Source: Acidimicrobiaceae bacterium
GTDB taxonomy: Bacteria; Actinomycetota; Acidimicrobiia; Acidimicrobiales; RAAP-2
Assembly: GCA_003161575.1 (NCBI GenBank)
Contig: PMOE01000083.1
Span: 1 to 64,000 of the forward strand
DNA: 64,000 nucleotides
Reading direction: 5' to 3'
This document shows, in pieces, positions 3,616-55,770 of this stretch. The notes below the pieces were generated by a model. The model was given only the letters and a program-made list of their open reading frames with translations. It was not told the DNA's origin and did no database searches. Numbering within the stretch: position 1 is the stretch's first letter; each line of letters starts with the position of its first letter. Made by a program: the position numbers and the translations under genes.

Positions 3616-4509
3616 TCACGGGCCGGTCACCGTCGGGGATTCAGGGACGCTCACGTCGATCACGTCGCCCGCCGTCAGCGTGGCGTGAGCCAGGAGTGCC
3701 GCGACATCCTCCTCTTTGGCTCCGAGCTGCGCGGTGGTGCCCAAGTCGACGGTGACGGGGATGGTGAGCTTCAGGCTGACCTGACCGCCCGAACCGACCG
3801 CCACTGCCACCACCTGGGCAGCGTAGGCCCGGGGCAGGCTGGCGGCCACCCGGAGCGCGGGTCCGGCGCTGGGCCCGAGAAAACTGGCCGGCGGCCCGGG
3901 ATGGACCGGGACGGCGAGTTGGACGAGGCCGGACGGCTCGGTTGCACTCTCGGCGAGTACCCGGCCGGTGGCGTCGACTTCGGCCCAGTCCGATGGGCCG
4001 CTCGGGGCCGCCGGGGAAGCGGCGACGATGGCCACTGGGGTCCGCTCGGTGACGCTGATCACCACCCCATCGGGCCACTGGCGGCGCACCGTGGCGGTGC
4101 CCACCCAGGCCAGACGCTCGACTCGGGCGGCCACCGCGGCCGGGTTGACATTGATCATCGGGGGGTGGGTCGCCAGGCCCGAGGCCGCCACCACCGCGGC
4201 ACGTTCGGTGTGGGCCGAGCCCTCGACCGTGACCACCCGGGCGCTCAACAGACGCGAATCGAGGAGCAGCCAGCCGCCCAGCACGATGAGAACGATCGCG
4301 GCGAACGCCACGAGCACGGCGAGCCGGCGACGCCCCTGGCGCCGGGTGACCGCCGCTCGGCGGTCGCGCAGCCGCGGGTCGATCCGGGGGGTGGCCTTCT
4401 TCTTGGCCCGGGCCGACGTTGCCCGGCGCCGGCGGGACGTGACCTCGGCCGTCGTGATCCGCCGGCGTCGCAAGGACCGGGGCGGGCTCGCGGTCTTCGA
4501 CGGCGTCAC
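3616..4509 (-). CDS. ftsQ: Cell division protein FtsQ (POTRA-domain divisome protein)
   Basis: 297 residues from the GTG at 4509, which overlaps the murB stop as GTGA. A longer reading frame upstream only shadows murB. The layout is typical of FtsQ: a very basic cytoplasmic N-terminus (residues 1-60, Arg/Lys-rich), one membrane helix (about 63-83, LAVLVAFAAIVLIVLGGWLL), the POTRA domain starting VVTVEGSAHTERAAVV, then the FtsQ beta domain with VISVTERTPVAIV. FtsQ bridges cytoplasmic and periplasmic divisome parts. The call rests on topology, motifs and its murB-ftsQ-ftsZ position. Confidence 0.92.
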   Translation of the reverse strand: MTPSKTASPPRSLRRRRITTAEVTSRRRRATSARAKKKATPRIDPRLRDRRAAVTRRQGRRRLAVLVAFAAIVLIVLGGWLLLDSRLLSARVVTVEGSAHTERAAVVAASGLATHPPMINVNPAAVAARVERLAWVGTATVRRQWPDGVVISVTERTPVAIVAASPAAPSGPSDWAEVDATGRVLAESATEPSGLVQLAVPVHPGPPASFLGPSAGPALRVAASLPRAYAAQVVAVAVGSGGQVSLKLTIPVTVDLGTTAQLGAKEEDVAALLAHATLTAGDVIDVSVPESPTVTGP

Positions 4510-51438: not shown

Positions 51439-52383
51439 ATGATCGAAGCACGAAGCCTCACCAAGCGCTACGGCGAGACCGTCGCCGTCGACGATCTCTC
51501 CTTTGATGTGTGCCCCGGGCAGGTGACCGGTTTTCTCGGACCAAACGGGTCGGGCAAATCGACCACCATGCGGATGATCATGGGCCTCGACTCCCCCAAC
51601 AGTGGTCGCGTCACCATCAACGGGCGGCGTTACCACGATCTGCCGTGGCCCCTTCGGGAGGTCGGTGCCCTGCTCGAGGCCAAGTCGATTCACCCGGGTC
51701 GGACAGCCTTTAACCATCTACTGGCCTTGGCCCAGACCAACGACATCTCCCCTTCGCGGGTCGAAGAGGTCATCGAGATCGTGGGCTTGACGTCGGTGGC
51801 CCACAAGCGGGCTGGCAAGTTCTCTCTCGGCATGGGGCAGCGGCTCGGCATAGCCGCCGCGCTGCTCGGCGATCCGGGCGTCCTACTTTTTGACGAGCCG
51901 GTCAACGGCCTCGATCCCGAAGGTATCCGTTGGGTGCGCACTCTTTTGCAGTCACTGGCCGCCGAGGATCGCACGGTGCTGGTCTCGAGCCACCTCATGA
52001 GCGAGATGGCGCTGACAGCCGAGCACCTCGTCGTGATCGGAAGGGGAAAACTCATCGCCGACACGTCGGTCACGAGCTTCATCGCTGGCAGCACCCACCA
52101 GTTCGTCAGGGTCCGTACCCCCGAGACCGACGCACTGACCAGCGCGTTGCTGGGTGCCGGTGCGGCCGTCGTCCCAGGGGTCGACGGTTCCCTATCGGTC
52201 ACCGGTCTAGCGGCCGCCGACATCGGCGATCTGGCGGCGCGCCACTCGGTGACCCTCCACGAGTTGGCCACCCAATGCGGATCGCTCGAAGAAGCCTTCA
52301 TGGAGCTCACCGCCGAGAGCGTCGAGTTTCACGGCGAGGCCACGATGCACCCGGCCAAGACGACGGCCGGAGCGGCCCGATGA
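51439..52383 (+). CDS. ABC-2 system ATP-binding protein
   Basis: 314 residues from the ATG at 51439, with GGAGGAG 4 nt upstream. Walker A FLGPNGSGKSTTMRMI, signature FSLGMGQRLGIAAAL, Walker B VLLFDEPVNGLDPEGIRW and switch region VLVSSHLMSEMALTAEHLVVI. The signature has LG in place of SGG, as is common in BcrA/DrrA-like exporters. The stop overlaps the permease start (ATGA). Confidence 0.93.
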   Translation: MIEARSLTKRYGETVAVDDLSFDVCPGQVTGFLGPNGSGKSTTMRMIMGLDSPNSGRVTINGRRYHDLPWPLREVGALLEAKSIHPGRTAFNHLLALAQTNDISPSRVEEVIEIVGLTSVAHKRAGKFSLGMGQRLGIAAALLGDPGVLLFDEPVNGLDPEGIRWVRTLLQSLAAEDRTVLVSSHLMSEMALTAEHLVVIGRGKLIADTSVTSFIAGSTHQFVRVRTPETDALTSALLGAGAAVVPGVDGSLSVTGLAAADIGDLAARHSVTLHELATQCGSLEEAFMELTAESVEFHGEATMHPAKTTAGAAR

Positions 52384-53231
52384 CTACGCTCAACGCCACC
52401 ATCGCCGAGGCCGTTCGACCTGTCTCCGGGCCGTCGGGTCACTACCGCTTCACCGGGGTATTGCGGTCCGAATGGACCAAGCTCCGCTCGGTGCGCTCGA
52501 CGACGTGGAGCCTGTTCGCCACCATCATCCTCACCGTCGGGATCGGAGTGTTGGCCACCGCCACGGTGGCGGCCCACTGGCAGCACCTGGGCCCAGACTT
52601 CCGTCTCACCTTCGACCCGGTGCGTCAGAGTCTGACCGGCCTCCTGTTCGGGCAGCTCTCCCTCGGGGTGCTCGGTGTACTCGTCGTCAGCGCCGAGTAC
52701 GGGACCGGGACCATCCGAGCCACCTTGGCTGCTGCGCCGAAGCGCACCCAGGTCCTCGCGGCCAAGGTCGCAGTGTTCGGCGCCGTCGCATTGGTAATAA
52801 GCGAGTTGCTCATGTTCGCCACCTTCTTCATCGGTCAGCTGATCCTGTCGGGGTCTGCGCCCGATGCCACTGTGGGCCAACCGGGCGTGCTCCGGGCGGT
52901 CGTCGGCGGCGGGATCTACCTGACAATCCTGGCCCTGTTGGCGATGGGGTTGGCTTCAATCATCCGACACACCGCCGGCGCCATCAGCGCCTTCGTGTTC
53001 CTGCTCTTGATCGTCCCGCTCGTCCTCCAGGCGCTGCCCTCTTCGATCGTCAATGCGGTCGGCAAGTACGTGCCGGCCAATATCGGCGCAACCGTCACTT
53101 CAACGAGCGGTGTTGGCTCTTTTGAGGGGCACAACTCCTTCTCGCCGTGGGAGGGGCTTGTCGTCCTGGCCATCTACGCCCTGGTAGCCCTCGTGCTCGG
53201 TGGCTGGCTGATGGTACGGCGCGACGCCTGA
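52380..53231 (+). CDS. ABC-2 family permease
   Basis: 283 residues, six helices. The N-terminal segment GVLRSEWTKLRSVRSTTWSLFATIILTVGIGVL is the hallmark of the actinobacterial permeases that pair with this ATPase type. SAEYGTGTIRATLAAAPKRTQVLAAKVAVF is the conserved coupling region. Start coupled to the ATPase gene. Substrate unknown. Confidence 0.9.
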   Translation: MTTLNATIAEAVRPVSGPSGHYRFTGVLRSEWTKLRSVRSTTWSLFATIILTVGIGVLATATVAAHWQHLGPDFRLTFDPVRQSLTGLLFGQLSLGVLGVLVVSAEYGTGTIRATLAAAPKRTQVLAAKVAVFGAVALVISELLMFATFFIGQLILSGSAPDATVGQPGVLRAVVGGGIYLTILALLAMGLASIIRHTAGAISAFVFLLLIVPLVLQALPSSIVNAVGKYVPANIGATVTSTSGVGSFEGHNSFSPWEGLVVLAIYALVALVLGGWLMVRRDA

Positions 53232-53255
53232 GCAGGACGGCGCCTGAGCAGGACG
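53226..53255 (+). repeat. Short tandem duplication at the permease stop
   Basis: GCCTGAGCAGGACG occurs at 53226-53239 and again at 53242-53255 (16-bp period). The first copy contains the permease stop codon, so the second offers a duplicate in-register TGA-containing segment just past the gene. Confidence 0.7.
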
Positions 53256-53265
53256 ATCCGGCTGC

Positions 53266-53412
53266 TCAGACGGCCGGCCCCCCGGACCAAGTGGACGGCG
53301 GGTCGCTCGCCGGGAACGACTCCTCGCCAGCCTCTTCGACCTCGTCGTCGTCCTCAGGCTGTGTCGGCTCCTCGTCAGGGCCGGGCGCCTGGGTACCGAT
53401 GGCCGTGGTCAT
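53266..53412 (-). CDS. 48-residue acidic protein with SFPASDPPS motif, downstream of encapsulin
   Basis: ATG at 53412 and TGA at 53266, starting one base after the encapsulin stop. The protein is very acidic in residues 12-31 (DEEPTQPEDDDEVEEAGEE) and ends ESFPASDPPSTWSGGPAV. An SFPASDPP(S/A)W-like ending recurs, in my recollection, in tiny uncharacterised bacterial proteins. The tight spacing makes it the third gene of the EncFtn-encapsulin operon. Possible roles are a minor cargo, shell-binding or folding factor, or an unrelated stress protein; none is shown. It does not end in the LGIGGLRG-type cargo peptide. Confidence 0.6.
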   Translation of the reverse strand: MTTAIGTQAPGPDEEPTQPEDDDEVEEAGEESFPASDPPSTWSGGPAV

Positions 53413-53413
53413 C

Positions 53414-54214
53414 TCACGGACTGAGGATCACTGCGGCGTCGGGCGAGGCGACTCGGAAGCTAAAGCTCTCTTCTAGGTAGAGGTGGACGTTGTGGGCGTC
53501 GTGGAACTCGTAGCCGATGGAGAGGTCCTGGCCCGATTCGAAGAGGAAATCCCCGCCTCGCAAGCTGAGGACGACCGCGCCGCTGACCCCGGGGGCCCAC
53601 ACGATGGGGCCGCCAAGGATCTGGCGCAGGTGGTCGAAGACAATCAGGCCCCCGTGCTCGGTCGTCTCGACGACTCCGGTGTAGCCGTCAGGTCCGAGCG
53701 CCAGGCCGTAGGGTCCGCTGATGCCGACCTTCAACAGCATCTCAACTGCGGTGGCAACGGTGGACGGGTAGTTGGCATACTCGGGGCCGAGGGTGACCGG
53801 TGGGTGGGTCGAGGCTTCGGTGACGCCGACGACACCGGCGTCCTCCCATCCATGAAAGACCGCCAGGTTCTCGGCCAAAGAGATCCGTTTGGCCGCGTCG
53901 TCGAGGCCATTGAGATCGAGATCGACGGCCCCGCGGTCAGCGTCGAGCAGTTCGTGGCGTTCGACAACGAAGGGAGCCCGCAACTCGACGAGGGGCAGCA
54001 CGGTGCGTCGGCGCGCTTCGAGCCCCTCGGCCGAGGTCCCGACGTCTCGGGCACGCCCGAGATTGGTTGCTGAGTGCTCCCAGCCTCTTGGCCCCGAGAA
54101 GTCCACCAGCTTGCGGGCGGCCAAGGCGGGAACGAGTCGTTGGCGGGCTTCCTCATCGAGCTGTTCCCAGCCGGTCTCGGTGATCGGTGCATGTGAACGA
54201 AGGAGGTGGTTCAC
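53414..54214 (-). CDS. Encapsulin shell protein (family 1, linocin-M18-like)
   Basis: 266 residues from the GTG at 54214, overlapping the ferritin stop as GTGA. Family features: NHLLRSHAPITETGWEQLDEEARQRLVPALAARKLVDFSGPRGWEHSATNLGR at the N-terminus, the E-loop/P-domain stretch ENLAVFHGWEDAGVVGVTEAS, LALGPDGYTGVVETTEHGG, WAPGVSGAVVLSLRGGDFLFESGQDLSIGY and the ending LYLEESFSFRVASPDAAVIL. HK97-fold subunits build an icosahedral protein cage that loads cargo through a C-terminal peptide. The coupled ferritin is the cargo. Confidence 0.96.
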   Translation of the reverse strand: MNHLLRSHAPITETGWEQLDEEARQRLVPALAARKLVDFSGPRGWEHSATNLGRARDVGTSAEGLEARRRTVLPLVELRAPFVVERHELLDADRGAVDLDLNGLDDAAKRISLAENLAVFHGWEDAGVVGVTEASTHPPVTLGPEYANYPSTVATAVEMLLKVGISGPYGLALGPDGYTGVVETTEHGGLIVFDHLRQILGGPIVWAPGVSGAVVLSLRGGDFLFESGQDLSIGYEFHDAHNVHLYLEESFSFRVASPDAAVILSP

Positions 54215-54588
54215 CGGGTCTCCCCTCTCAGGCCGCCGATACCAAGTGATCCACCGCCGTCAGTGACGGGATCGCCTCCTTCGGCCTGGACCTCTCGCTC
54301 CACCTCGGTGACCGGCTCAGTGGTGAACAGATAGGTCCGAAGGTGCTGGTCGAGAGCCGGATCGCGCCGCCGCAGCCACTCGAGAGTCATCGCCGCGTGC
54401 TCCTTCTCCTCGTCGCGATTGTGCGCCAGGAGAACTGCGAGCTCCGCGTCGTCTGTGGCATTGGCCCGCTGGTCGTACCAGTCGACCGCTTCGAACTCCT
54501 CTTGAATCGAGGTAATGGCCCGGTGACGGTCGATCGTCTGAGGCGACAACCGCTCCTCGGGTTCGTGCAATCCGACACTCTGGGCCAT
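54211..54588 (-). CDS. Encapsulated ferritin-like protein (EncFtn) with cargo-loading peptide
   Basis: 125 residues from the ATG at 54588, because AGGAGG lies 6 nt upstream; the ATG at 54594 touches the AGGAGG. The two-helix EncFtn domain is very close to the Rhodospirillum rubrum protein: DRHRAITSIQEEFEAVDWYDQR and LAHNRDEEKEHAAMTLEWLRR. The iron-site residues align as Glu31, Glu61 and His64, with entry-site Glu30, Glu33 and Trp37. After a Gly-rich linker the C-terminus is GGSLGIGGLRGETR, the encapsulin-targeting peptide. It oxidises Fe(II) inside the cage for storage. Confidence 0.96.
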   Translation of the reverse strand: MAQSVGLHEPEERLSPQTIDRHRAITSIQEEFEAVDWYDQRANATDDAELAVLLAHNRDEEKEHAAMTLEWLRRRDPALDQHLRTYLFTTEPVTEVEREVQAEGGDPVTDGGGSLGIGGLRGETR

Positions 54589-54708
54589 CGACATCCTCCT
54601 CGGGGTTTTGGGATTAGGGGGCTGCGCTTTGACCGTACCAGGGCAACCCTGCGGCCTGGTCCTGGATCGGGAATGCGCACCTGACTGTGTCCTTCATGAT
54701 CGGTGCCC

Positions 54709-55770
54709 TCAGTGATCGGCCCTGGTGGCCGCCAGACCGTGGTACGGACTCCCGGCCTCCTGCCACTCCTCGTAGAGCTCGAAGAATTCCTGGCCGAAGG
54801 GGTCCTTGCCGATCAATGGCATGGCGGCCCTGCGCACGGTCCAGTCGTGGGGGGCGAGCTGGGCCGCCTGTTCGAAGTGACGGCGGCCGGCCGCATCGTC
54901 GCGTTGCCGTTGCGCTTCGGCCCCGACCCGGAAATGCAGGCGGGCCAGAACCTCGTCGTCGCTCAAATCCGCGACTGCCCGGCGGGCCTCTTCGGGAGCC
55001 ATCGGGACTTCGCCGTCTCGCACCCAGCGACGGACAGCGCGCAAATGCGGTTCTGCCTCGACCCCGGTGAAGTCCGAAAAGGTGTCCGTCCCAAAGGCGA
55101 CGCCGTTCGGCCGCACGATGTGGTCGTCCTCGTCAATCCAAACGACCGTCGGCACGTTGGAGATAGCGAAGAGCTCGGTCAGCAGGTGCTGGCTGTCAAT
55201 CAGAACAGGGAAGGTGATCCCGTCCACCCACGGGCGGACGTCTGCAGGATCGTTGTCAATCGCCACCGCGACCGCGGTGAAACCGTCATCGGCCAGCTCC
55301 TCGTGGAGGGCCTGCCATCCCGGGAGGTCGTAACGGCATCCGCACCAACTTGAGAATGTGACCAGGAGCTTCTTGCGACCGTGCCACTCATCGAAGTGGT
55401 GATCCTCGCCGTCGAGATCGGGCAGCGAGAACGCTGGTGCCTCGAGTGAATCGAGGGCACGGTGACGCTGCTCGGCTCCAACGGCTACCGCCGCGATCCC
55501 GGCGCCGGTATCGACAACAACGAGAAGGCCGAGGGCGGCAGCGGCCGCGGCCAGATCCACGCCTGCTCCGACCACCAGCGATCCAGGGTCGGCCACCGGC
55601 ACGCAGACGTCGCCCCGACACAGGCCTTCGGGTTTGAGGGCCCAGCCCAGGACCTCGACCAGCTGGTCGGCATCGATGAGCACACGGCCATCGGCCACCG
55701 CTGCGTCGACCGATCTGACCCCTTCTGTGATCACGCTGATCTGTCGCACCCGAGCACCTCGTCTTCGCAT
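54709..55770 (-). CDS. Thioredoxin-fold (TlpA/AhpC-like) protein with CxC motif
   Basis: 353 residues from the ATG at 55770; a GTG at 55749 is an alternative. Residues about 1-105 form an unrelated Val/Ala-rich domain with CRGDVCVPV. Then comes a TlpA-like thioredoxin domain (about 110-250): APAFSLPDLDGEDHHFDEWHGRKKLLVTFSSWCGCRYDLPGWQALHEEL, NVPTVVWIDEDDHIVR (cis-Pro). The usual CxxC is replaced by CGC. The C-terminal about 80 residues are helical and TPR-like. No signal peptide. Upstream of the EncFtn operon on the same strand; a redox role is inferred. Confidence 0.8.
   Translation of the reverse strand: MRRRGARVRQISVITEGVRSVDAAVADGRVLIDADQLVEVLGWALKPEGLCRGDVCVPVADPGSLVVGAGVDLAAAAAALGLLVVVDTGAGIAAVAVGAEQRHRALDSLEAPAFSLPDLDGEDHHFDEWHGRKKLLVTFSSWCGCRYDLPGWQALHEELADDGFTAVAVAIDNDPADVRPWVDGITFPVLIDSQHLLTELFAISNVPTVVWIDEDDHIVRPNGVAFGTDTFSDFTGVEAEPHLRAVRRWVRDGEVPMAPEEARRAVADLSDDEVLARLHFRVGAEAQRQRDDAAGRRHFEQAAQLAPHDWTVRRAAMPLIGKDPFGQEFFELYEEWQEAGSPYHGLAATRADH

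Follow-up and report, generated by a model that had tools for sequence, protein, structure and literature searches.

A short frame that starts directly behind an encapsulin gene raises the question of whether its product belongs to the encapsulin system or serves a purpose of its own. The gene order, the distribution of the frame, the occurrence of its sequence motif in other proteins and the pattern of base changes each bear on the answer.

Gene order at the encapsulin locus

In the window, i.e., the whole stretch of 64,000 nucleotides that was analysed, the family 1 encapsulin shell protein is encoded at 53414..54214 on the minus strand (NF041155, 1.6e-85, 286.6 bits with a curated cut-off of 100; PF04454, 2.7e-77). 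The gene of the encapsulated ferritin EncFtn lies at 54211..54594 on the same strand (TIGR04535, 2.8e-43, 146.5 bits with a curated cut-off of 125; PF22277, 5.5e-39), and its product has the C-terminal tail GGGSLGIGGLRGETR. Both genes are adjacent and above their curated cut-offs, as it is found for family 1 encapsulin operons, and the first-pass annotation had named them correctly. As in the known EncFtn/family 1 operons (Flp class), the cargo gene is placed directly upstream of the shell gene and both overlap, here by 4 nt (GTGA). Unlike these operons, the window has an extra third cistron, and among the family 1 accessory genes covered by the available part of PMC8346489 there is no protein like the one it encodes.

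This third cistron at 53412..53266 encodes a protein of 48 residues, MTTAIGTQAPGPDEEPTQPEDDDEVEEAGEESFPASDPPSTWSGGPAV, with 13 aspartate or glutamate residues, no lysine, arginine, histidine or cysteine and a pI of about 4. Its coordinates, length and acidity were given correctly before; it is encoded on the minus strand, and 53266-53412 read on the plus strand yields an unrelated peptide. The junction to the encapsulin gene is TGA-G-ATG (TCCGTGAGATGACC), confirming that a single base separates the encapsulin stop codon from the ATG. The protein was described as ending in SFPASDPPSTW; this motif is present near the end, and SGGPAV follows it, the C-terminus being SFPASDPPSTWSGGPAV. The conserved motif block DEVEEAGEESFPASDPPSTW comprises residues 23-42 (53287..53346, minus strand) with the core SFPASDPP at 53296..53319. 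Searches of the whole protein against Pfam and NCBIfam gave zero matches even at E = 1, and an AF2 model, weak as it was built from an alignment of two sequences, is disordered and without secondary structure (pLDDT 63, pTM 0.13).

The same order of genes, i.e., redoxin, EncFtn, encapsulin, tiny gene and a convergent ABC transporter permease, is present at L037, a locus of an Acidimicrobiaceae metagenome-assembled genome, with 61% identity for the redoxin, 74% for the encapsulin and 68% for the permease, which closes the block in the window at 52380..53231 on the plus strand. At the other EncFtn/encapsulin loci of the set no homologue of either the redoxin or the permease was found. The layout of the junction suits a translational coupling of the tiny gene with the encapsulin gene. 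The claim that it is translated together with shell and ferritin agrees with its position as third cistron, the GTGA overlap, the TGA-G-ATG junction and the coding pattern seen in comparison with L037; the co-translation is thereby predicted, and the tiny gene is a genuine third cistron that is probably translated.

Two further features of the neighborhood were observed. The redoxin/TlpA-like protein upstream of EncFtn (54709..55770, minus strand; PF08534), a position conserved in L037 only, resembles the WAxxUGC selenoprotein-type family NF041054 below its cut-off (213.9 bits, cut-off 300) and has the cysteine form SSWCGC. Between the stop of the tiny gene and the convergent permease, at 53218-53279, there are an inverted repeat and a 16-nt direct repeat (TGAGCAG/CTGCTCA), which may form a shared terminator region having no T run; scans for promoters, terminators and Rfam families gave nothing above chance.

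The tiny gene and encapsulins in other genomes

The first-pass annotation proposed a small partner that is conserved with EncFtn encapsulins and named a lack of the frame beside other encapsulins as an outcome that would refute it. The regions downstream of about 100 encapsulin genes were read, which came from 298 genomes of the order and, across phyla, from 80 relatives of EncFtn; the tiny gene was found at two loci, the window and L037, and thus not beside EncFtn encapsulins across lineages. The encapsulins closest by identity besides L037, i.e., L032 (75%), L035, L036 and L034, do not have it downstream, and no degenerate copy was seen beside these four or beside the encapsulin of L019. The encapsulin tree places L037 beside L036 and not beside the window (support 99/89), which together with the synteny shared by the window and L037 suggests that either L036 lost the arrangement or the arrangement was exchanged.

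Moreover, the tiny protein occurs unlinked to encapsulins, as the first-pass annotation stated for tiny proteins with this motif. In G298, the genome of L032, and in G305, the genome of L043, the encapsulin and a similar tiny protein are encoded on different contigs, and separate contigs were also found in G069, G137, G203, G234 and G264; within the order, the two genes are on different contigs in the five other genomes that have both. In G045, G081, G101, G164, G253 and G260 the tiny protein is present with no encapsulin match in the genome. Furthermore, its C-terminus has no loading peptide of the kind SLxIGxL/TVGSL, whereas SLGIGGL is present in the EncFtn encoded in this operon. The presence at two of about 100 loci, the unlinked copies and the missing loading peptide leave the idea of a conserved partner unsupported beyond one lineage, and encapsulins in general seem not to need the tiny carrier.

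A narrower reading is that the tiny protein acts as a lineage-specific accessory, e.g., a minor cargo, a pore plug or an assembly factor, working on the shell or on EncFtn. This is suggested by the tight TGA-G-ATG coupling, by the syntenic block that the window and L037 have in common and by the distribution within the order, where 6 of the 12 genomes that encode a tiny carrier have an encapsulin, compared to 33 of 286 others (p = 0.0018, a test that ignores phylogeny and genome size, with 5 of the 12 genomes coming from one family). It is also suggested by L033, where an EncFtn gene (4001-4357) has no encapsulin within 4 kb, the encapsulin of this genome being on another contig, and a gene for an FPASDP protein is located in the same orientation about 2.1 kb upstream. 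However, the rarity of the arrangement, the unlinked copies, the genomes with a tiny protein and no encapsulin match and the lack of a loading peptide speak against it, and genomes with the motif in an aconitase loop show a similar excess of encapsulins (p = 0.014), although these aconitases are not parts of encapsulins. Such an accessory role is judged unlikely. For the encapsulin field this is a warning against taking a small gene for a shell component on the basis of tight operon spacing alone. The caution in the first-pass annotation that the link may be accidental was well placed, as the motif is common to many proteins that have no encapsulin connection; the link is an arrangement specific to one lineage and of modest interest, and it is the motif that deserves further attention.

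The FPASDP block and its carriers

The shared block has the consensus [VLI]DEAxxE[ST]FPASDPP[AS]x[WY] of roughly 16 residues, and about 80 distinct proteins carry it, spread over at least three phyla. In the order, the FPASDPP DNA pattern occurs in 37 of 298 genomes, compared to four matches of a reversed control pattern. Within 78 non-identical carriers the core is preceded by [VLI] at position -7, D (79%) at -6, E (66%) at -5, A (64%) at -4 and E (66%) at -1, and it is followed by P (80%), then A or S and then often W or Y. The invariance of the core FPASD is partly due to the construction of the search, whereas the flanks from -7 to -1 lay outside the search pattern. The tiny protein of the window fits this consensus with the core SFPASDPP, the flank VEEAGEE, which has E for D at -6 and otherwise follows the consensus, and W at +10 of the core, which is found in 16% of the carriers with Y being also frequent nearby. 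In the sampled carriers no Pfam or NCBIfam model covers the block, and neither FPASDP nor SFPASD was found as a protein sequence in the open-access papers searched, a part of the whole literature, where two text matches were unrelated. Within these sources the block appears to be undescribed, short docking or targeting peptides being a known kind of element.

The carriers are of several kinds, i.e., tiny acidic or membrane-anchored proteins, aconitases with the block in an internal loop or in the C-terminal tail, and unrelated proteins with the block in their tails; the motif is portable. The tiny acidic carriers end shortly after the motif, and some tiny carriers of Alphaproteobacteria and Acidobacteriota have an apparent N-terminal membrane helix (L207, L212, L217, L220, L300, L303). 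No conserved neighbors of tiny carriers elsewhere were evident from the ORF lists. A small alphaproteobacterial protein (L219) has the block twice in tandem, DERLDEALEESFPASDPPSQ followed by EERVDEALEETFPASDPPSH. Carriers with the block in the C-terminal tail comprise a PRPP-synthetase-like enzyme (ribose-phosphate pyrophosphokinase), SDR, acetate kinase, SRPBCC, HAD, DUF1244 and OsmC proteins. In plasmids and phages, tblastn with the whole 48-mer returned nothing, probably due to low-complexity masking; with the 26-residue core as query, 54 plasmid records were found. Several carriers are located among stress genes on plasmids.

A structurally characterized carrier is the Pseudomonas metallothionein PDB 6GRV, which, like the tiny protein, ends in the block (LDEALEETFPASDPIS, within the fuller tail NNQLDEALEETFPASDPIS) and, unlike it, is a metal-binding protein. 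The block is located in a disordered tail (chain A, residues 57-81). The match has E-values of 0.04-0.45, and the case rests on identical residues, not on statistics alone. According to the available part of PMC7387436, the P. fluorescens metallothionein is induced in stationary phase and aids long-term starvation survival; no role of the tail is stated in that part. The stress and stationary-phase contexts of the carriers hint at a role in slow growth or stress.

In aconitase A the block is located in the internal linker between GPxRPQD and ITSCTNTSNP. Linkers of 65-114 residues in Actinomycetota carry DEAxxESFPASDPP, whereas linkers of 36-58 residues are without it. The block is internal here and not a free-standing protein; the sequence DEAxxESFPASDPPA resembles that of the tiny protein. 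Aconitases with the block in the linker (L112, L117-L119, L122, L123, L126, L127, L131, L132, L139, L140, L181-L188, L195, L196, L208, L226, L229, L231, L232 and L235) include Mycobacterium-like sequences. A gammaproteobacterial aconitase with a linker of 69 residues (L272) has no block in it and carries the block at the C-terminus instead (L170, G319:C14), while a second gammaproteobacterium (L281) has it in the linker; aconitase thus has the block at two different places.

The aconitase of the window genome itself (L225) has a short linker that lacks the block, and the same is true for nearly all genomes with a tiny carrier that were read. A tiny protein may therefore provide the block in trans. 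All short-linker aconitases read are without the motif, and most of their genomes have a tiny carrier. A strict complementarity of aconitase insert and tiny protein was considered and rejected: G203 has both, G300 and G301 have neither, and neither is found in most genomes of the order under the strict pattern.

Bacteria have been mapped for short linear motifs far less than eukaryotes. The block is strict and short, is located in disordered tails, in loops and on tiny proteins and has moved among unrelated hosts, which suggests a docking motif, and its independently conserved flanks on aconitases, metallothionein and tiny proteins point to a shared putative receptor. The product of the tiny gene would thus be disordered and acidic and carry a portable docking peptide, and a common receptor would recruit, localize or turn over the carriers; this reading is held with modest confidence as the probable one. 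The acidic, proline-rich N-terminal half of the tiny protein would act as a leash and its C-terminal block as the recognized part. The same block, attached to an aconitase loop, to the tails of enzymes and metallothionein or to free-standing tiny proteins, of which some have a membrane helix, would in the simplest mechanism be bound by the putative receptor, i.e., a chaperone or protease adaptor, a scaffold or an anchoring protein, and binding would result in recruitment, localization or turnover. In the lineage of the window, the free-standing carrier would be translationally coupled to EncFtn and encapsulin and hence made together with them.

Known systems offer partial parallels. Cargo-loading peptides of encapsulins are likewise short, disordered, portable and usually C-terminal; in contrast to these, the FPASDP block has no SLxIGxL-like sequence and its carriers include proteins without a link to encapsulins. 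By analogy, the CIA targeting (TCR) tripeptide of eukaryotic Fe-S proteins (PMC13082141) is a short motif on diverse clients that is read by one receptor, although sequence, organism and machinery are different. A wider form of the docking reading, which is put forward tentatively, is that several phyla use one portable 16-residue FPASDP tag and a single putative receptor, by which aconitase, metallothionein and further proteins of metabolism or stress would be recruited or regulated. The free tiny proteins would then act in trans as adaptors, as competitors or as anchors, and the one of the window would be translated along with an encapsulin that stores iron.

Against docking it can be said that the carriers share no obvious pathway and that short motifs can converge. 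The block could also act without any receptor, by solubility or charge, or as a degradation signal that hands its carriers to a protease (ClpXP, Lon or FtsH) under certain conditions. Its position within 40 residues of the C-terminus in 49 of 82 carriers, in disordered tails or loops, would suit a degradation signal, as would the stationary-phase expression reported in the available part of PMC7387436 for the metallothionein carrier family. However, the abundant housekeeping aconitase carries the block constitutively, and in many carriers the motif is internal or has another 15-40 residues behind it, making degradation signaling a doubtful, quite improbable explanation.

Selection on the frame and on the peptide

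At the syntenic position in L037 the homologue of the tiny protein is MTRAWRGEQPADPVPPPDEDIPDEVEEEDEESFPASDPPAQWAGARPPS, with 48% identity overall. Over the core of 22 codons both genes differ at 15 bases, 3/3/9 for the first, second and third codon position, which results in just five residue changes (P = 0.00115 for so few residue changes when the same 15 base changes are redistributed at random, a test resting on this one syntenic homologue). The outer half of the protein varies between both loci, yet remains acidic and proline-rich. Based on the third-position bias and the syntenic block, the ORF is taken as a real gene with purifying selection on its C-terminal half. That it is a chance, untranslated ORF in GC-rich DNA could be argued from its shortness, from the lack of a Shine-Dalgarno sequence clear to the eye and from the lack of a family model. 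The third-position bias, the fit to a wide motif family and the core kept in L037, with five residue changes in 22, make it very improbable.

A spread of the block by in-frame insertion of a mobile DNA element, like the Rickettsia palindromic elements, would explain the same peptide in unrelated proteins, an internal loop included, and is hardly credible, being already disfavored by the absence of conserved DNA around the peptide and by the variety of its DNA spellings. The 82 carriers use 67 different 21-nt spellings with serine codons of both the AGY and the TCN family, which indicates that selection acts on the peptide and not on a DNA element.
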